Below the pieces are notes generated by a model, which saw only the letters and a list, made by a program, of their open reading frames with translations, did no database searches and was not told the DNA's origin. From Myxococcota bacterium (lineage in GTDB: Bacteria; Myxococcota_A; Bradymonadia; UBA7976; UBA1532), in assembly GCA_963169045.1 (NCBI GenBank), contig CAUJDF010000042.1, forward strand, positions 184,711-248,710: a stretch of 64,000 bases of DNA. Direction: 5' to 3'. Positions within the stretch are counted from its first letter, which is position 1. Each line of letters begins with the position of its first letter. Below, one piece after another: positions 29,194 to 39,057 of the stretch. A program made the position numbers and the translations under genes.

Positions 29194-29197
<4 letters not shown>
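26414..29197 (-). CDS. actB: Alternative Complex III Fe-S / molybdopterin-like subunit ActB, Tat-type leader
   Basis: MRPTRRDFLRTLSAAAAAWGLEGC; CTGCSACVVACVAENNIPMVGKAQVRLGREMHWLRIDVY ... CVHCEKAPCEYVCPVNATSHSHDGINEMTYNRCVGTRYCSNNCPYKVRRFNW. Confidence 0.95.
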
Positions 29198-29832
<635 letters not shown>

Positions 29833-29873
29833 CGATGGGGGGATGAGAGCGACCTCGCGCAGGTCGCCCGGAT

Positions 29874-32009
29874 TCAGCGCGGGGGCGCGTCCAGCGGAAT
29901 GCGGCCGTCGAAGCCGACACCCGAGTCGATGAGACGTCCGCTGCCGTCGACGTGCACGAAGGCGGGGGTGGAACGCACGGCGAAGAGCTGATGGGCCTGG
30001 TCGGCGAGGTCGAGGGCGATGGGGAACGGGAAGGGCCGGCCGCCGAGGCGGAACTTCGCGTGGAAGGCGGCGACGTCGGCGGCGGGCTCGTTGGTGATGG
30101 CGACGACCTGGGCGTTGTGGCTGATGGCCCAGCGCTTGAGCGCCGGCAGCGCGCGCTTGCAGGGGCCGCAGTGGGTCGCCCAGAAGAAGAGGACGGTGGG
30201 GCGGTCCTCGGAGAGCTTCGGCAGCGGCGGGGCGCCCTCGAGGGCGCCGAGCTCCAGGGCGGGCACGGCGTCGCCCGGCTCGAGGGGCCGCAGCGGCAGC
30301 GGCATGGGGACGAGGCGGACGGGCACCACCTCGGTGCCGCCGTCGCGCAGGACGGTGATCCGGGCGGTGTGTCCCGCGCCGGCGAGGGCGACGTGGGCGC
30401 GCAGCTCGCCGGTCGCGTTCAGGGGCGCGTCGTCGAACTTCACGAGCACATCGCCGGCGCGCAGGCCCGCGGCGCCGCCGGGGCCGTCGGCGCGCACGTC
30501 CTTGACCTTGGCGCCCGCGGGGCCCTCGTCGTAGGTCACGCCGAGGTACGCGGGGCGCAGCTCGGCCACGCCGGCGACGAGTGTGTCGACGGGCGGCAGC
30601 GGCTCCATCGCCGGCGGCTCGTCCTTCGGGCGTGGCGCGGCGCCGGCCAGCGTGACCGGGGGCAGGAGCGGCGCCTCCTCGCAGGCGCGCAGCTGCTCGA
30701 GCTGGTCGCGCGCGGGCGCCGAGAGGAGCGGCGGCGCGGCGAGGCGCGCGTAGAGGTACGCGATGCGCAGCGCGGCGGCCTCCTGCAGCTCGAGGCGCTC
30801 GCTCAGCTCGTCGCCGCGGCGGACGCGCGCGTTGACGGCGGCGAGGCGCGCGTCGAGCGCGGGGTGCTCGACGAGCGACGCCTTGAGCTGCTTCACGATG
30901 CCGCGGCGCGCGTTGACGCGCGCGTCGCGCGGGGCGGCGCGCGCGAGCTGGACGGTGAACGGCTCGGCGAGGCGCGCGCGGTCGGCGCCGATCACGGCGT
31001 CCCAGCGGTCGGACCACTCGTCGAGGGCGAAGAGGGCGGCGTCGACGCGGCGGCGGACCTGCTCGGTGGCGGCGAAGGTCGACACGTCGCCGAGGCCGTA
31101 CTGGCGCGCGATGCGCTGCGCGAGCCGGCGGGCGGGCGCGTCGGCGGGGACCTGCGCGAGCCGCGCGTCGACGAGCGCGGCCACCGTCTGCCCGCGGCGC
31201 TCGGCCTCCTCGGCCAGCGTCCGGTACAGGAAGGCGTCGCTCGTCAGGTGCGGCGTGTCGGGCGTGTCGTCGGTGAGCATTGCCTCGTCGGTGGCGGCGG
31301 CGACGGTGCCGTGCCGCTGCAACCCCGCGAGAAACTTCTGGAAATGGCCGATGTCCTGCCGCTCGGCGAGCTCGGGGAAGCACCCGTAGGCCGGCCGGTC
31401 GGGCATGGCTGCGAAGCTGCCGCAGAGGTTCTCGCGCTCGAGGTGCAGGCCGGCGAAGCCGCCGCCGTAGCACTGGGACATCCAGAGCACGACGCGCACC
31501 CCTTCGGGGACGGGGCGCAGATCGGCGGCCAGCTCCTGCGTCGTCCAGCTCTCGCCCCAGAGCGAGATGCGCGTGTCCCACTCGCCCTTCGGGTCGGGCT
31601 GGCCGTGGTCGGTGACGGCGAGCAGCAGCGTGTCGCCCGGTTGCAGGCGGCCGCCCTCGCGGGCGAGCCAGGCCTTGAGGGCGCGGCGCTTGGCGGGGCG
31701 CGGCTCGTAGCCCGGGAAGGTCGTGTCCTCGAGCGCCGGGCCGACGCGGGTGGCCTCGTCGAGGCGCGTCCCGTGGAGCAGCCAGTCGTCGCGGACGGCG
31801 TCCTCGGGCCGGACGACGGCGCGGTCCGCTCCGGGCGCGGCGCCGTCGGCCCAGAACACGGCGATGTCCGCCTTCGGGATGCCGCGCGCCTCGGCGGCCT
31901 CGACGAGGGCCCGCACGTGGACGGCGTGGCTGTTGTAGTTCTCGGCCGCCTCGCCCCCTCCGGCGAGGACGAGCACCTTGAGCGCGGCGAGGAGAAGCGG
32001 AGAGCCCAT
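29874..32009 (-). CDS. Clan-CD (C13/caspase-like) cysteine peptidase - PDZ - thioredoxin-like fusion, 711 aa
   Basis: LLLAVTDHGQPD (His motif) and VVLWMSQCYGGGFAG (Cys motif); PDZ PAYLGVTYDEGPAGAKVKDVRADGPGGAAGLRAGDVLVKFDD; thioredoxin TVLFFWATHCGPCKRALPALKRWA. Only this part of the 2977-aa ORF is real. Confidence 0.85.
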   Translation of the reverse strand: MGSPLLLAALKVLVLAGGGEAAENYNSHAVHVRALVEAAEARGIPKADIAVFWADGAAPGADRAVVRPEDAVRDDWLLHGTRLDEATRVGPALEDTTFPGYEPRPAKRRALKAWLAREGGRLQPGDTLLLAVTDHGQPDPKGEWDTRISLWGESWTTQELAADLRPVPEGVRVVLWMSQCYGGGFAGLHLERENLCGSFAAMPDRPAYGCFPELAERQDIGHFQKFLAGLQRHGTVAAATDEAMLTDDTPDTPHLTSDAFLYRTLAEEAERRGQTVAALVDARLAQVPADAPARRLAQRIARQYGLGDVSTFAATEQVRRRVDAALFALDEWSDRWDAVIGADRARLAEPFTVQLARAAPRDARVNARRGIVKQLKASLVEHPALDARLAAVNARVRRGDELSERLELQEAAALRIAYLYARLAAPPLLSAPARDQLEQLRACEEAPLLPPVTLAGAAPRPKDEPPAMEPLPPVDTLVAGVAELRPAYLGVTYDEGPAGAKVKDVRADGPGGAAGLRAGDVLVKFDDAPLNATGELRAHVALAGAGHTARITVLRDGGTEVVPVRLVPMPLPLRPLEPGDAVPALELGALEGAPPLPKLSEDRPTVLFFWATHCGPCKRALPALKRWAISHNAQVVAITNEPAADVAAFHAKFRLGGRPFPFPIALDLADQAHQLFAVRSTPAFVHVDGSGRLIDSGVGFDGRIPLDAPPR

Positions 32010-32015
32010 GCCGAG

Positions 32016-32021
32016 ATGATA
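32016..32021 (-). promoter_or_regulatory. Candidate -10 box (TATCAT) 6 nt from ATG of the peptidase-PDZ-Trx gene
   Basis: Minus strand TATCAT-CTCGGC-ATG; -35 weak. Confidence 0.4.
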
Positions 32022-32022
32022 C

Positions 32023-32047
32023 GTGGCGCGCCGCGAAGACGCGCCAC
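32023..32047 (-). terminator. Hairpin after the sigma-54 activator gene
   Basis: GTGGCGCG (32023-32030) / CGCGCCAC (32040-32047), 8-bp perfect stem, 9-nt loop. Confidence 0.5.
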
Positions 32048-32050
32048 GAC

Positions 32051-33586
32051 TCACGCGCGACGGACGCCGAGCTTCTGCATGCGCGACTGCAGGGTGGTCG
32101 GCTTGAGGCCGAGCAGATCGGCGGCGCCGCCGGGGCCGTAGACGCGGCCGTTCGTGCGCGTCAGGACGGCCTCGATGTGCAGGCGCTGCACCTCGTCGAG
32201 CGTGCGCACGGGCGCGTCCTCCGGGGGCGGAGGCGCGGCCCGGCGGACGTTGCCCGGCGCCTCGAAGAGCGAGGGCTCGAGGTCCCCCTCCGGCTGCAGG
32301 ATGGTGGCGCGCTCGAGGGCGTTGACGAGCTGGCGGACGTTGCCCGGCCAGGGCAGCGCGCGCAGGCGTTCGGCGGTGGCGCGCGGCAGCGTCCAGGGCC
32401 CGCGGCCGGTGCGCAGCGCGAGGCCGCGCAGGACGTCCTCGGCGATCGGCACCACGTCCTCGGGGCGGTCGCGCAGCGGCGGCAGGCGCAGCGGGAAGAC
32501 GTCGAGGCGATAGAGCAGGTCCTCGCGGAAGCGCCCGTCGCGCACGGCGGCGGCGAGATCGACGTTCGTCGCGGCGAGGATGCGGACGTCGACGCGCACC
32601 GTCTGGTCCGCGCCGACCGGCTCGAACGTGCCCTCCTGCAGCACGCGCAGCAGCTTGGCCTGCGCGCCCGCCGGCAGGTCGCCCACCTCGTCGAGCAGGA
32701 GCGTGCCGCCGTTGGCGGTGAGGAAGCGCCCGGGGCGCGCCCCGGTCGCGCCGGAGAAGGCGCCCTTCACGTGGCCGAAGAGCTCGGATTCGACGAGGTT
32801 TTCGGGCAGCGCGGCGCAGTTGATCTTCACGAACGGCTGATCGCGGCGGCGGCTCCAGTCGTGGAGGGCCTGGGCGAGGACCTCCTTGCCGGCGCCGGTC
32901 TCGCCGAGGAGGAGGACCGGCGTGTCGGTGACCGCCACCTGGCGGGCCTGGCGGGCGAGGCGCTGCACGACGGGCGAGCGGCTGTGCTCGAAGCGGGCGG
33001 TCGCGTCGGTGGGGCGGCCGGCCTCCTCCGCGAGCAGGCGGCTGTGCTCCTGCAGGCGCAGGCGGTAGCGGTCGAGCAGGCGCGCCTGCTCCGCGTGCAG
33101 AAAGGCGAGCGCCACGATCTGCCCGTAGACGCCGGCGAGGCCGACCATCTCCGGCGCGTAGGGCCGACAGACGCCGCGGTCGAGCGTGATGACACCGAGC
33201 GTGCGGTCGCCGGCGAAGAGGGGCACGACCATGCAGGCGTGCCCCGCGGGCAGGTCGAGCACGCCGTCGTACGGGTCGCCCTCGTCGGAGGCGTGGTGGT
33301 GCTCGAGCATGGCGATCGGCTGCCGCGTCTCGAGGGCGCGTCGCACGGTGGGGTAACGTCGCAGGGTGATCCGGTGACGGTGCACCTCGGGGCGCGCGAG
33401 CGGCCCGCGGGCGGCGCGAACACTGAGCTCGTCGCCGTGCAGCTCGAGGACGGCCGCGAGGTCGTAGGGCACGAGGGCCGCGAGCGAGTCGAGCGCGCGC
33501 CCGAGGACGTCGTCGAGCGAGTCCGGATGTCCGGCGAGGCGGGCGATCTCCCGCAGGTCGGCGGTGTAATCGACGATGTCCGGCAT
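32051..33586 (-). CDS. Sigma-54-dependent transcriptional activator (GAF - AAA+ - Fis HTH)
   Basis: [81 protein letters not shown] (GAFTGA-like GAFSGA); N-terminal GAF; C-terminal [22 protein letters not shown]. Confidence 0.97.
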
Positions 33587-33601
33587 GGCGCGCTCCGTGT
33601 G

Positions 33602-33656
33602 ACGAGATTTCGTTGGATGCACCGACATTTCGGTGCGTCGCGCAACGAAATTTCGT
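33602..33656. promoter_or_regulatory. Three inverted-repeat operator/UAS sites
   Basis: ACGAGATTTCGT (33602-33613), GCACCGA-CATT-TCGGTGC (33619-33636), ACGAAATTTCGT (33645-33656, perfect palindrome); centres 20 and 23 bp apart; shared ATTTCG core. Confidence 0.75.
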
Positions 33657-33688
33657 CGACGGCGGCGGAAAACGCCGCGGCGCCGGGT

Positions 33689-33704
33689 TGGCACGGCGCC
33701 TGCT
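33689..33704 (+). promoter_or_regulatory. Sigma-54 (-24/-12) promoter of the peroxiredoxin operon
   Basis: TGGCAC-GGCGC-CTGCT versus consensus TGGCAC-N5-TTGCW; about 55 nt upstream of the ahpC-like ATG and 30-90 bp downstream of the inverted repeats. Confidence 0.75.
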
Positions 33705-33758
33705 CAAGGGGCACGGCGTGGCGGCAACGACGCCGCCCCAACCCCCGAGGAGAGAGCC

Positions 33759-34289
33759 ATGTTGACGATCGGCGACCGCCTTCCGAACTTCGACCTGACC
33801 GCCGTGGTGAGCCGCGACAAGAACGAGGCCTTCAAGCAGATCCACCAGGACAGCTTCCCCGGCAAGTGGAAGGTCCTGTTCTTCTGGCCGATGGACTTCA
33901 CGTTCATCTGCCCGACGGAGATCGCGGCCTTCGGCAAGCGCAACCGCGACTTCAACGACCGCGACGCGGTCATCCTCGGCGCCAGCACCGACACGCACTA
34001 CGTGCACCTCGCCTGGCGCAACGACCACCCGGACCTGAAGGACCTGCCCTACCCGATGCTCGCCGACACCAAGCGCGAGCTGGCGACGGCGCTGGGCATC
34101 CTGCACAAGACCGACGGCGTCGCGCTGCGCGCCACGTTCATCGTCGACCCGGACAACGTCATCCGCTGGGTGAGCGTGAACGACCTGTCGGTGGGCCGCA
34201 GCGTGGACGAGACGCTCCGCGTGCTCGACGCGCTCCAGACCGACGAGCTCTGCCCCTGCAACTGGCAGAAGGGCGACCCCACTCTCTGA
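33759..34289 (+). CDS. ahpC: AhpC/TSA peroxiredoxin
   Basis: MLTIGDRLPNFDLTAVVSRDKNEAFKQIHQDSFPGKWKVLFFWPMDFTFICPTEIAAFGKRNRDFNDRDAVILGASTDTHYVHLAWR; C-terminal ELCPCNWQKG. Confidence 0.96.
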   Translation: MLTIGDRLPNFDLTAVVSRDKNEAFKQIHQDSFPGKWKVLFFWPMDFTFICPTEIAAFGKRNRDFNDRDAVILGASTDTHYVHLAWRNDHPDLKDLPYPMLADTKRELATALGILHKTDGVALRATFIVDPDNVIRWVSVNDLSVGRSVDETLRVLDALQTDELCPCNWQKGDPTL

Positions 34290-34325
34290 AACGACGCGCT
34301 GACGACGATTCGACAGGAGGAAACC

Positions 34326-34850
34326 GTGAACGCGATCGACGCCCTGCGGGACCGGATCCCCGACCCGGCCCGCGACATCTCCGTGAACCTGCAGTCGGTG
34401 CTGACGCAAGGGTCGCTGAGCGAGGCGCAGCGCTGGGGCGTCGCGCTCGCGGTGGCCCTCGCGTCGGGCAACGCCGACCTGGCCCGCGCCATCGCCGCCG
34501 ACGGGGCGGGCGCGGGCCCGGCGGTGGCCGACGACGCCCGCGCCGCGGCCGCGCTGATGGCGATGAACAACGTGTACTACCGCTTCCGACATCAGATCGG
34601 GAAGGCGACGTACACCGAGAAGCCGGCGCGCCTGCGCATGCAGCGGATCGTGAAACCGCTGACGAACAAAGCGGATTTCGAGCTGATGTGCCTCGCGGTG
34701 AGCGCGGTGAACGGCTGCGAGGCGTGCGTGCGCGCCCACGAGCGCTCCGTGCTCGAGCTGGGCCTGACCGAGGAGCACGTCCACGACGCGGTGCGCGTCG
34801 CGGCGGTGGTCCGCGCCGCCGCCGTGACGCTGTCGATGCCGGCGATCTGA
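34326..34850 (+). CDS. ahpD: AhpD-family alkylhydroperoxidase
   Basis: LCLAVSAVNGCEACVRAHERSVLELGLTEEHVHDAVRVAAVVRAAAVTLS (CxxC + downstream His). Confidence 0.93.
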   Translation: MNAIDALRDRIPDPARDISVNLQSVLTQGSLSEAQRWGVALAVALASGNADLARAIAADGAGAGPAVADDARAAAALMAMNNVYYRFRHQIGKATYTEKPARLRMQRIVKPLTNKADFELMCLAVSAVNGCEACVRAHERSVLELGLTEEHVHDAVRVAAVVRAAAVTLSMPAI

Positions 34851-34910
34851 ACGCGACCGACGGCCCGCGGGGGACGTCGGTTCGAGACACTCCGGGAGCG
34901 AGGTGATCTC

Positions 34911-35390
34911 ATGAAGGGCAACAAGAACGGCGGCGTCGGCATCGCGCCCGAGCACCGCAAGCGCATCGCCGGCGATCTCGGTCGCCTGTTGGCGGACACC
35001 TACCTGCTGCAGCTCAAGACGCAGAACTACCACTGGAACGTGACGGGGCCGATGTTCGTCCAGCTGCACGCGCTGTTCGAGACACAGTACGAGCAGCTCT
35101 CCGAGGCGGTGGACGAGCTGGCCGAACGCATCCGGGCGCTGGGCGAGCCGGCGCCGGGCACCTTCCGGCAATTCAAGGACCTGGCCTCGGTGAAGGAGGA
35201 CGACTCGCTGCCCGAGGCGAAGGAGATGGTGCGGCTGCTGGCGGAGTGCCACGAGGTGTGCGCCCGCAACACGCGCCAGGTCATCCCGCGCGCCGACGAG
35301 GCCGGCGACGACGTCACCGCCGACCTGCTGACCGAGCGCCTGGCCGCGCACGAGAAGAGCGTCTGGATGCTGCGCGCGATTCTCGGCTGA
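34911..35390 (+). CDS. dps: Dps family ferritin-like protein
   Basis: LLADTYLLQLKTQNYHWNVTGPMFVQLHALFETQYEQLSEAVDELAERIRALGEPAPGTFRQF. Confidence 0.95.
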   Translation: MKGNKNGGVGIAPEHRKRIAGDLGRLLADTYLLQLKTQNYHWNVTGPMFVQLHALFETQYEQLSEAVDELAERIRALGEPAPGTFRQFKDLASVKEDDSLPEAKEMVRLLAECHEVCARNTRQVIPRADEAGDDVTADLLTERLAAHEKSVWMLRAILG

Positions 35391-35433: not shown

Positions 35434-38400
35434 ATGATGAAGCGTCGTGCCCTCCCCTGGCTCGTCCTCGTCCTCGCCGCCTGCACCGAAGAGAACCCGG
35501 ATCGCGTGACGTTACCCGCCGACGCGCCCGACGCCGCCGCGTGCGTGGACGGCGCGGCTTGCGACGACGGCGATCCGTGCACCGCGGGCGATCGATGCGA
35601 GCGCGGCGCGTGCCGCGGCGAGCCGCGGATCTGCGACGACGACGATCCGTGCACCGTCGACCGCTGCGACCCGACGAGCGGCATGTGCTTCGGCGAGGCC
35701 ATGCCGGTGCAGGGGCGCGAGGGCGAGCCGGGCGACGCCCGCTGCGGCGACGGCGTCGACGGCGACTGCGACGGGCTCGTCGACGGTGCGGACGCGGACT
35801 GCCGGCGCTGTGCGGACGACGCGGAGTGCGTCGACGCGAACCCGTGCACCCGCGAGCGCTGCGCCCGCGGACGCTGCGAGTCGGTGAACGCCGACGACGG
35901 CGTCGCGTGCGACGACGGCGACGCCTGCACCGAAGGCGACACGTGCGGCGGCGGGCGCTGCGGCGGGGCGCCGCGCGCCTGCCCGCCCGTCGAAGGCGCG
36001 TGCATGGCGCCGGCGTGCGCCGAAGGCGAGTGCGGCGCGGCGCCCCTCCCCGACGGGACGGCCTGCGACGACGGGGACCCATGCACGACGGAAGACGCTT
36101 GCGTTTCGGGCACTTGCGACGGCAAGCCCCGCGACTGCGGCGAGCTCGACGGGCCTTGCGTCCGCGGCGTGTGCGCCGAAGGCGGCTGCCGCGCGGCGCC
36201 GCGCGTCGACGGCACGCCGTGCGACGACGGCCTCTGCCAGCCCGACGCCATCTGCGTCGCCGGCGAGTGCGCCGGCGATCGCGTCGACTGCTCGCGGCTC
36301 GACGGCGTGTGCCGCGTCGGCGTCTGCGATCCCGACACCGGCGGGTGCGGCGCGGCGGCGGCTCCCGCGGGCACCGCGTGCGACGATGGCGATCCGTGCA
36401 CCACGGACGACGCGTGCGGGGAAGGCGGATGCCGGGGCACGCCGCGGGCCTGCGACGGCGGCCCCTGCGGTGTGGGCCGCTGCGACGCGGCCACCGGCGC
36501 GTGCGTCGTCGACCCGGCGCCGAACGGGACGCCCTGCGACGACGGCGAAGGCTGCACCGAGGGCGACCGCTGCGTGGACGGCGCGTGTCTCGGCGCCGAG
36601 CGCGCCTGCCCCGCGCCCGACGCGCCATGCCGGGTGGCCGCCTGCGACCCGCGCACGGGCGAGTGCGGGCGCGCGCCGGCGCCCGACGGGACGGCCTGCG
36701 ACGACGGCGACCGCTGCACCACGGGCGACGCCTGCACGGCGGGGCGCTGCGAGGGGGCGGCCCCGGCCTGCGACGATGGCGACGCGTGCACGGTGGACCG
36801 CTGCGATCCGGTGAGCGGGGCCTGCGTCCACCCCTTGCAGCCAGGCGACGGGCGCGAGGGCGCACCCGGCGACCCCGCGTGCGCCAACGGGCGCGACGAC
36901 GACTGCGACGGCCTCGCCGACGCCGCCGACGCGGACTGCCGCCGCTGCGCCGCGGACGCCGACTGCGACGACGGCGATCCCTGCACGGAATTCTCTTGCG
37001 ATGCGGGGACTTGCGTAGCCCGCCCCAGCGCGGCGGACGGACGCGCTTGCGACGACGGCGACGCCTGCACCCAGGGCGACACGTGCCGCGCCGAGCGCTG
37101 CGAGGGCGCCGCCGTCGACTGCTCCGGGCTCGACGGACCGTGCGCGCGCGGCGTGTGCGCCCTGGGCGCGTGCGTGCCGCGGCCGGTCGGCGACGGCGCG
37201 GCCTGCGACGACGGCGACGCCTGCACCCAGGGCGACGCGTGCCGCGAGGGCTCGTGCGCCGGACGCCCGCGCGACTGCTCGGCGCTCGACGACGAGTGCC
37301 GGGTGGGCCGCTGCGCCGAGGGCGGCTGCCGCGCCGAGCCGCGCCCGGCGGCGACGCCCTGCAACGACGGGCAGCCGTGCACCGTCCGCGACGCCTGCGA
37401 GGCCGGCGAGTGCCGCGGCGCGCCCGCCGACTGCGGCGCGTTCGATGGCGCATGCGTGGTCGGCCAGTGCGATCCGACGAGCGGCGACTGCGCGCCGGTC
37501 CGCCTGCCCGACGGGAGCGGGTGCGACGACGGCGATCCGTGCACCGTCGACGACGCGTGCACCCTCGGCGCCTGCGCCGGGCGCCCGCGCGACTGCGCCG
37601 CGCTCGACGGGGCGTGCGTGGTCGGGCGGTGCGACGAGGGCGCGTGCCGCGCGGTGCCGAGGCGCGACGGGACGCCCTGCGACGACGGCAGCGCGTGCAC
37701 CGCGGAGGACGCATGCGGCGGCGGCGAATGCCGCGGCGCGGCGCGTGATTGCGCCGCGCTCGACGGCCCGTGCGTCGTCGGCGCGTGCGATCCGGCGACG
37801 GGGCGCTGCGTCGCGGTGCCCGCCGGCGACGGCGCCCCCTGCGACGACGGCCTCCGCTGCACCGCCGACGACCGCTGCGCCGAGGGCGGCTGTGTCGGGG
37901 CGCCCGTGGACTGCCGCCGCCTGGACGGCCCGTGCGCGACGGGGGCGTGTGATCCCGCGACCGGCGCCTGCGTCGCCCGCCCGCTGCCCGACGACACCGC
38001 GTGCGACGACGGCCAGGCCTGCACCGACGGCGATGCGTGCCGCGACGGCGCATGCCGCGGCGACGGCCTCGATTGCGGCGGGCTGAACGACGCGTGTGTC
38101 GTCGGCGTCTGCGACCCGGCGGCGGGCGACTGCCGCGCCGAGCCGCTGGCCGACGGATCTCCCTGTGATCCCGGGGACTTGTGCACGGTGGGCGCCACGT
38201 GCGAGCGCGGCGCCTGCGTGGGCGCGCCGCGCGACTGCAGCGCGCTCGACGGGCCGTGCGTCACCGGCGCGTGCGATCCGGCGACCGGCGCGTGCGTGGC
38301 GGAGCGCGCGGCGGAGGGGACCGCCTGCGAAGACGGCAATCCGTGTACGGTCGAGGAGCGCTGCGAGGCGGGCCGCTGCCTCGGCGGCGCCCGGAGCTGT

Positions 38401-39057
38401 GCGCACCTCGACGGCCCGTGCACCGTCGGCCGGTGTGACGCGCAGCAGGGCTGCGTCGCCGTGCCGCGCGCCGACGGCGCCGCCTGCGACACCGGCAACC
38501 CCTGCCTGACGGAGGAGGCCTGCCGCGCCGGCGTCTGTACCGGGACGCCGATCGCCTGCGTCGACGCGGACCCGAACCCGTGCCGCGCCGCCGCGTGCAA
38601 TCCGGCCACCGGGCGATGCGAGCCGGCGGACGTGGCCGACGGCACCGCCTGCGACGACGGCGCGTTCTGCACGACGGGGGACGCGTGCCGCGCCGGCCAG
38701 TGCCGCGGCGCGGCCCGCGACTGCAACCCGCCCGGCGAGCCGTGCCGTGTCGGCACCTGCGACGAGCGTCGCGACCGGTGCGACGTCGGCAACCGGCCGA
38801 ACGGCACCGCCTGCGACGATGGTCAGTTCTGCAGCGTGGGCGACCGCTGCTACAGCGGCACCTGTCGGCCCACGGGCAGCCGCGACTGCCCCGACGCGAA
38901 CGCCGGGTGCGCGCGCGGCGTGTGCGACGAGCAGGGCGACCGCTGCACGCAGGTGGCGGCGCCCGAGGGCACCCTGTGCTTCGACGGGAACCCCTGCACC
39001 TTGGGCGACACCTGCCGCGGCGGTGACTGCGCCGCCGGCCGCGACATCTGCCCCTGA
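35434..39057 (+). CDS. 1207-aa Cys-rich repeat lipoprotein with two MopE-like Asp-rich motifs
   Basis: Lipobox LVLVLAAC; about 23 repeats of the type (A/P)CDDGxxCTxxDxCxxGxCxGxxxxC; GDGVDGDCDGLVDGADADC and NGRDDDCDGLADAADADC. Confidence 0.9.
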   Translation: MMKRRALPWLVLVLAACTEENPDRVTLPADAPDAAACVDGAACDDGDPCTAGDRCERGACRGEPRICDDDDPCTVDRCDPTSGMCFGEAMPVQGREGEPGDARCGDGVDGDCDGLVDGADADCRRCADDAECVDANPCTRERCARGRCESVNADDGVACDDGDACTEGDTCGGGRCGGAPRACPPVEGACMAPACAEGECGAAPLPDGTACDDGDPCTTEDACVSGTCDGKPRDCGELDGPCVRGVCAEGGCRAAPRVDGTPCDDGLCQPDAICVAGECAGDRVDCSRLDGVCRVGVCDPDTGGCGAAAAPAGTACDDGDPCTTDDACGEGGCRGTPRACDGGPCGVGRCDAATGACVVDPAPNGTPCDDGEGCTEGDRCVDGACLGAERACPAPDAPCRVAACDPRTGECGRAPAPDGTACDDGDRCTTGDACTAGRCEGAAPACDDGDACTVDRCDPVSGACVHPLQPGDGREGAPGDPACANGRDDDCDGLADAADADCRRCAADADCDDGDPCTEFSCDAGTCVARPSAADGRACDDGDACTQGDTCRAERCEGAAVDCSGLDGPCARGVCALGACVPRPVGDGAACDDGDACTQGDACREGSCAGRPRDCSALDDECRVGRCAEGGCRAEPRPAATPCNDGQPCTVRDACEAGECRGAPADCGAFDGACVVGQCDPTSGDCAPVRLPDGSGCDDGDPCTVDDACTLGACAGRPRDCAALDGACVVGRCDEGACRAVPRRDGTPCDDGSACTAEDACGGGECRGAARDCAALDGPCVVGACDPATGRCVAVPAGDGAPCDDGLRCTADDRCAEGGCVGAPVDCRRLDGPCATGACDPATGACVARPLPDDTACDDGQACTDGDACRDGACRGDGLDCGGLNDACVVGVCDPAAGDCRAEPLADGSPCDPGDLCTVGATCERGACVGAPRDCSALDGPCVTGACDPATGACVAERAAEGTACEDGNPCTVEERCEAGRCLGGARSCAHLDGPCTVGRCDAQQGCVAVPRADGAACDTGNPCLTEEACRAGVCTGTPIACVDADPNPCRAAACNPATGRCEPADVADGTACDDGAFCTTGDACRAGQCRGAARDCNPPGEPCRVGTCDERRDRCDVGNRPNGTACDDGQFCSVGDRCYSGTCRPTGSRDCPDANAGCARGVCDEQGDRCTQVAAPEGTLCFDGNPCTLGDTCRGGDCAAGRDICP
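35560..39050 (+). repeat. Degenerate ~40-45 aa Cys-rich repeat array
   Basis: Repeated tgcgacgacggc...tgcacc cores through the gene. Confidence 0.85.

Follow-up and report, generated by a model that had tools for sequence, protein, structure and literature searches.

What function could bring a caspase-like peptidase, a PDZ domain, and a thioredoxin domain together in a single bacterial polypeptide, encoded directly ahead of a respiratory gene? The question is raised by one gene in the window, namely, the 64,000 nucleotides of Myxococcota DNA analyzed here, for which a first-pass annotation had proposed a clan CD peptidase followed by a helical region, a PDZ domain, and a TlpA-like thioredoxin domain with a CxxC motif. 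The answer toward which the evidence points, with a probability of roughly 60%, is that the gene encodes a C13 (legumain-type) cysteine endopeptidase of Myxococcota that would act in protein processing or quality control and carry its own client-binding and thiol-active modules.

Architecture and spread of the family

The open reading frame runs on the minus strand from an ATG at 32009 to 29874 and encodes 711 amino acids without internal stops; the His, Cys, and CGPCK motifs all lie in it where they had been placed, with the codons of the CGPC cysteines, Cys614 and Cys617, at about 30170-30159 (Table 1). The PDZ domain (PDZ_2, residues 488-564, E 4e-11) and the thioredoxin domain (AhpC-TSA/Redoxin, residues 578-701, E 1e-10) both score well above their Pfam cut-offs, and the proposed domain order is borne out.

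Table 1. Positions in the window of the peptidase gene, its domains and key residues, and the flanking gaps
Feature	Position	Strand	Evidence
Gene for C13-like peptidase with helical, PDZ, and TlpA-like thioredoxin domains, 711 aa	29874..32009	-	ORF, Pfam, homologues
C13 (legumain-type) peptidase domain, residues 1 to ~270	31200..32009	-	alignment, Pfam, model
Catalytic His135 (VTDHG)	31605..31607	-	homologue and legumain alignment
Catalytic Cys180 (MSQC)	31470..31472	-	homologue and legumain alignment
Asn24, aligned with legumain Asn42 (third C13 active-site residue)	31938..31940	-	alignment; PMC9604545
Invariant non-catalytic Cys196	31422..31424	-	alignments
Invariant non-catalytic Cys210 (AYGC, aligned with legumain YAC)	31380..31382	-	alignments
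All-helical domain, about residues 271-445, with terminal invariant Cys443-Glu444	30675..31199	-	
PDZ domain, residues 488-564	30318..30548	-	Pfam
TlpA/ResA-like thioredoxin domain, residues 578-702, CGPC 614-617	29904..30278	-	Pfam
Gap after upstream sigma-54 activator gene, 41 bases, strong hairpin (z -3.8), no U-tract	32010..32050	-	
Gap to actA, 41 bases, weaker hairpin (z -2.5), no U-tract	29833..29873	-	

A protein search of 96 relatives recovered the whole architecture at 15 further loci, with 30-49% identity, 14 of which align with the window protein over the full length or nearly so (30-48% identity); because the architecture recurs at so many loci, it represents a true gene fusion and neither a coincidence nor an artefact of the reading frame. 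Scanning 85,462 species genomes with two seed sequences, one of them the VTDHG stretch, yielded 49 loci, nearly all in Myxococcota or former Deltaproteobacteria assembled from metagenomes; a few lie in bins labeled Binatota, Acidobacteria, Planctomycetota, and Klebsiella (the last label is probably wrong). Among 284 sampled Myxococcota genomes, strong matches (E below 1e-70) occur in 21 and weaker ones in a further 30 or so, those read belonging to the sister family described below. The window protein is a real bacterial protein conserved in Myxococcota and, apparently, undescribed: as the first-pass annotation had surmised, no protein with this domain order was found in the literature searched, which consisted mostly of papers outside subscription journals, and NCBIfam has no model with this order. 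The main text of a 2012 survey of prokaryotic caspase homologues, which covers C14 and not C13, mentions neither PDZ nor thioredoxin (PMC3501461). Membership in a defense system was considered as well, and PADLOC gave no match.

The legumain-type peptidase domain

The clan CD assignment holds and can be narrowed to family C13. On its own, the window protein remains below the Pfam cut-off, matching Peptidase_C13 over 124-212 with E 0.014 when the whole protein is searched and with E 0.0014 (18.7 bits vs a cut-off of 22.8) when the search is limited to the N-terminal 300 amino acids. When the family is taken together, its N-terminal domain belongs to C13: the Pfam profile (PF01650) matches 39 of 41 family domains at E<=0.1, with a best E of 1.5e-11. 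Compared with the PDB, the family profile aligns with human legumain across the domain (E 0.0018), starting at the first strand and extending beyond the catalytic Cys, placing TDHG on TDHG, MSQC on the legumain IEAC, and His135 and Cys180 on legumain His148 and Cys189; the His-Gly and then the Cys each follow a hydrophobic strand (LLLAVTDHG, VVLWMSQC). Modeled with AlphaFold, residues 1-450 (pLDDT 91.5, pTM 0.90) are predicted to take a caspase-hemoglobinase (clan CD) fold, and a Foldseek search with the model ranked legumain chains in places 1-23 (E as low as 7e-7), then plant metacaspase 9 and, lower still, the bacterial structure 3bij (all with probability 1.00).

The dyad is conserved in nearly all homologues. 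In the protein-based set, including the window protein, the His is present in 14 of 15 sequences and the Cys in all 15, and both residues are found in 42/42 intact, aligned homologues drawn from the species scan, a set in which conservation of the His is biased because one seed contained VTDHG. The single exception, L013 in genome G001, has Gln in place of the His (SSQG) and MSPC in place of MSQC, yet retains the PDZ and thioredoxin domains; judging by these substitutions, it is probably a pseudo-protease. A C13 profile and a conserved dyad, on which the first-pass annotation had staked its reading, were thus both recovered, with a sub-threshold score for the window member and one apparent pseudo-enzyme.

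Metacaspases and orthocaspases of family C14 are characterized by a D-x-C motif, in which the Asp precedes the catalytic Cys by two residues, and by Arg/Lys specificity. Assignment to this group was rejected because an invariant Ser178 occupies the place of the Asp. The bacterial and plant metacaspase-like C14 peptidases and GSU0716 (3bij) share with the window protein the clan CD fold and the HG and C-SG motifs, but the structural match is weaker than that to legumain, and the window protein, besides missing the Asp, has Asn24. This residue is invariant across the 41 aligned domains and falls at the position of legumain Asn42, the third active-site residue of legumain, in place of which caspases, paracaspase, and metacaspases use a main-chain carbonyl (PMC9604545).

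Legumain (MEROPS C13, PF01650) is the closest known system, with which the window protein shares the caspase-hemoglobinase fold, the order of His and then Cys, the TDHG motif, the Asn at the Asn42 position, and a C-terminal helical domain behind the peptidase domain, without a claim that the helical domains are related. It differs in the following: identity is 11-15%, Arg44 is not conserved, Pro and Ala occupy the positions of Ser215 and Ser216, the Glu190 brake is absent, with an aromatic residue instead, and the PDZ and thioredoxin domains have been added. Of the residues that form the S1 pocket of legumain, namely, Arg44, His45, Ser216, and Asp231 (PMC4357240), the sequence alignment of the family retains the His, shows no conservation of Arg44 and Ser216, and leaves Asp231 unplaceable; with the pocket only partly kept, specificity for asparagine is unsupported and should not be assumed. 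The same genome encodes a second C13 domain (L001, G000:C91:109402-110181, minus; E 7.9e-32) that sits behind an apparent periplasmic ligand-binding domain, possibly in a ligand-sensing protease.

Accessory domains and export

The stretch of residues 271-445 is helical, with an invariant Cys-Glu at its end; an identification of this domain with the legumain prodomain was rejected and no kinship is claimed, because the Foldseek alignments to prolegumain that extend into it have an rmsd near 20 A. For the PDZ domain, the nearest counterparts are those of DegP and DegQ. The HtrA/DegP/DegQ proteases likewise combine a protease with PDZ in an envelope setting, but their catalysis is trypsin-like, whereas here the peptidase is a cysteine enzyme and a thioredoxin domain follows PDZ. 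The thioredoxin domain finds ResA and DsbE-type structures among its best matches. PDZ and thioredoxin occur in one chain in secreted PDZ-TlpA proteins and in Trx7/PDZ (seleno)proteins (NF041199) also, but these have no peptidase domain, and NF041199 matches the window protein through PDZ only. Free-standing secreted PDZ-TlpA proteins are present in relatives, so the C-terminal half is a recognizable module.

This module is not uniformly retained. The CxxC is intact in 31 of 43 aligned rows, 11 proteins end after PDZ, and in L067, which represents the same locus as L017, the thioredoxin domain lacks the CxxC; with the domain lacking in several lineages and the CxxC in another, the core function does not depend on the thioredoxin domain. 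In a maximum-likelihood tree built from the core, its presence and absence require three changes, at least two of them forced by well-supported branches, and loss is the simpler reading, with the position of the root not fixed. A sister family (L139-L145) consists of C13-like and helical domains only, in proteins of about 500 residues, several with lipoprotein-type leaders; it aligns with the core over 427 columns (hhalign E 2.6e-32), shares with it the HG motif, the Cys motif, the two later cysteines, and the Cys-Glu at the end, and lacks PDZ and thioredoxin. The sole member tested escapes the Pfam C13 profile.

By eye and a hydropathy script, many homologues carry lipobox-like leaders (e.g., L055, L056, L058, L063, L069, L074, L079, and L081) and others conventional signal peptides or membrane anchors (L062, L068, L073, and L076). 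In the window protein, the first beta-strand begins at residue 10, which leaves a protein started at this ATG no space for a cleavable signal peptide; in its nearest relatives, the strand likewise begins within about 10 residues of the start, and L007 and L049 offer no start codon further upstream from which a signal could be gained. An upstream GTG that overlaps the stop of the regulator gene and would add 15 residues was rejected: the extended N-terminus does not convincingly resemble a signal peptide, and close homologues use the equivalent ATG. Among the inspected members from the order to which the window genome belongs, none has a recognizable signal peptide, and an envelope role in this order is accordingly doubtful. 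Its members have either turned cytoplasmic or are exported by an unrecognized route, and the long branch on which they sit in the maximum-likelihood tree would fit a changed role.

Genomic neighbourhood and function

The gene lies just upstream of actA, in the same direction (actA begins with an ATG at 29832, to the left), as the first-pass annotation had noted before inferring, as one option, an envelope quality-control or cytochrome maturation factor for the ACIII-caa3 complex. A role in the assembly of this complex or in the maturation of cytochromes has no support in the comparative data. The act genes and the other window neighbors are absent from all 14 extended homologous loci, and in no other genome examined is a homologue adjacent to actA: in the nearest relatives with both genes, these lie on different contigs, and in G272 they share a contig at a distance of 24 kb. 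Co-occurrence is at background level, with actA in 15 of the 21 genomes with a strong homologue vs 217 of 284 in the phylum sample overall, so there is no association between the two genes. An assembly or maturation factor co-transcribed with actA would account for the 41-bp spacing on the same strand and for the similarity of the TlpA-like domain to ResA and CcmG; however, in view of the above, of the hairpins in both intergenic gaps, of the missing signal peptide in the window member, and of a thioredoxin domain that is dispensable in the family, we consider such a factor highly improbable. The hairpins, which lack U-tracts, do not decide on read-through, and the adjacency, peculiar to this genome, says little about function. 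In the reading favored below, the peptidase is no dedicated factor of respiration. Two copies of actA, sharing about 50% identity, occur in the genome (window 29194-29832 and G000:C28:37551-38117), and the window copy is as distant from the genes of relatives as from its own paralogue. On the right, the neighbor is a GAF-sigma-54 activator, divergent from a cluster encoding a peroxiredoxin, an AhpD-like (CMD) protein, and a Dps-like protein with a ferritin fold (window 32051-35390), which together with the activator likely form a peroxide-response unit. Beyond it (window 35434-39057, plus strand) lies the gene for a 1207-aa, very cysteine-rich protein that begins like a lipoprotein (VLVLAACTEEN) and carries numerous DGDPCT-type repeats, a weak match to Dicty_CTDC repeats.

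The only conserved neighbors are lineage-specific and indicate no pathway: a KamA-family radical SAM gene downstream at eight loci of the window order and, at eight loci of another lineage (L054, L056, L057, L059, L060, L069, L085, and L093), a same-strand, mostly adjacent downstream gene for a secreted, CSLREA-like beta-helix protein, identified by eye and without a Pfam match. The beta-helix protein is a candidate client of the peptidase. It could also suggest a protein ligase or sorting transpeptidase, similar to GPI8 or the plant peptide asparaginyl ligases, which belong to C13, and in line with this, Pro206 falls at the legumain Ser215 position, which is variable in ligases (PMC9604545). 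Yet, by eye, the beta-helix proteins share no C-terminal sorting signal and the neighbor is confined to one lineage, which makes a ligase decidedly unlikely. A different possibility, a redox-regulated protease as also raised by the first-pass annotation, centers on the cysteines: residues 180, 196, 210, and 443 are invariant, and, leader peptides excluded, 35 of 43 proteins have no others besides the CxxC, a strong sign that these four are important, whether in disulfides, as a redox switch, or for metal. If oxidation trapped Cys180, or the loop containing Cys196, Cys210, and Cys443, in a disulfide and the thioredoxin domain reactivated the enzyme, proteolysis would be coupled to the redox state of the envelope. 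Such a switch would suit the location of Cys210, which aligns with a stretch beside the substrate pocket of legumain, and the retention of the same four cysteines in the sister family; however, the sister family and the 11 shorter homologues keep them without a thioredoxin domain, and in the window order, seemingly without export, there would be no oxidizing compartment, so that we rate the switch as rather doubtful. An elaboration, in which the four-cysteine core senses thiols, PDZ binds client ends, and the thioredoxin domain opens disulfides before the client is cleaved, appears quite unlikely as well; if true, it would amount to a self-contained, disulfide-aware degradation enzyme in one polypeptide, of a kind that we know of in no bacterium.

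The reading that we favor remains a C13 endopeptidase for processing or quality control. By alignment with legumain, the Cys180/His135 dyad would cut peptide bonds, with Asn24 orienting the His; the helical domain would be part of the enzyme core and might gate the active site; PDZ, by analogy with the HtrA proteases, would recruit protein ends or unfolded clients; and the TlpA-like domain would reduce or isomerize client disulfides or else maintain the enzyme's own cysteines. In most lineages, this would be an exported, often lipid-anchored envelope enzyme, the order of the window genome being the one without a recognizable signal.

The comparison across genomes corrects a tempting guilt-by-neighborhood tie to the respiratory chain. 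The bacterial C13 proteases are little studied, despite the importance of their eukaryotic relatives, legumain and GPI8, and the fusion with PDZ and thioredoxin, together with the strict four-cysteine signature, offers a cheap route to asking whether bacteria link proteolysis with disulfide chemistry.
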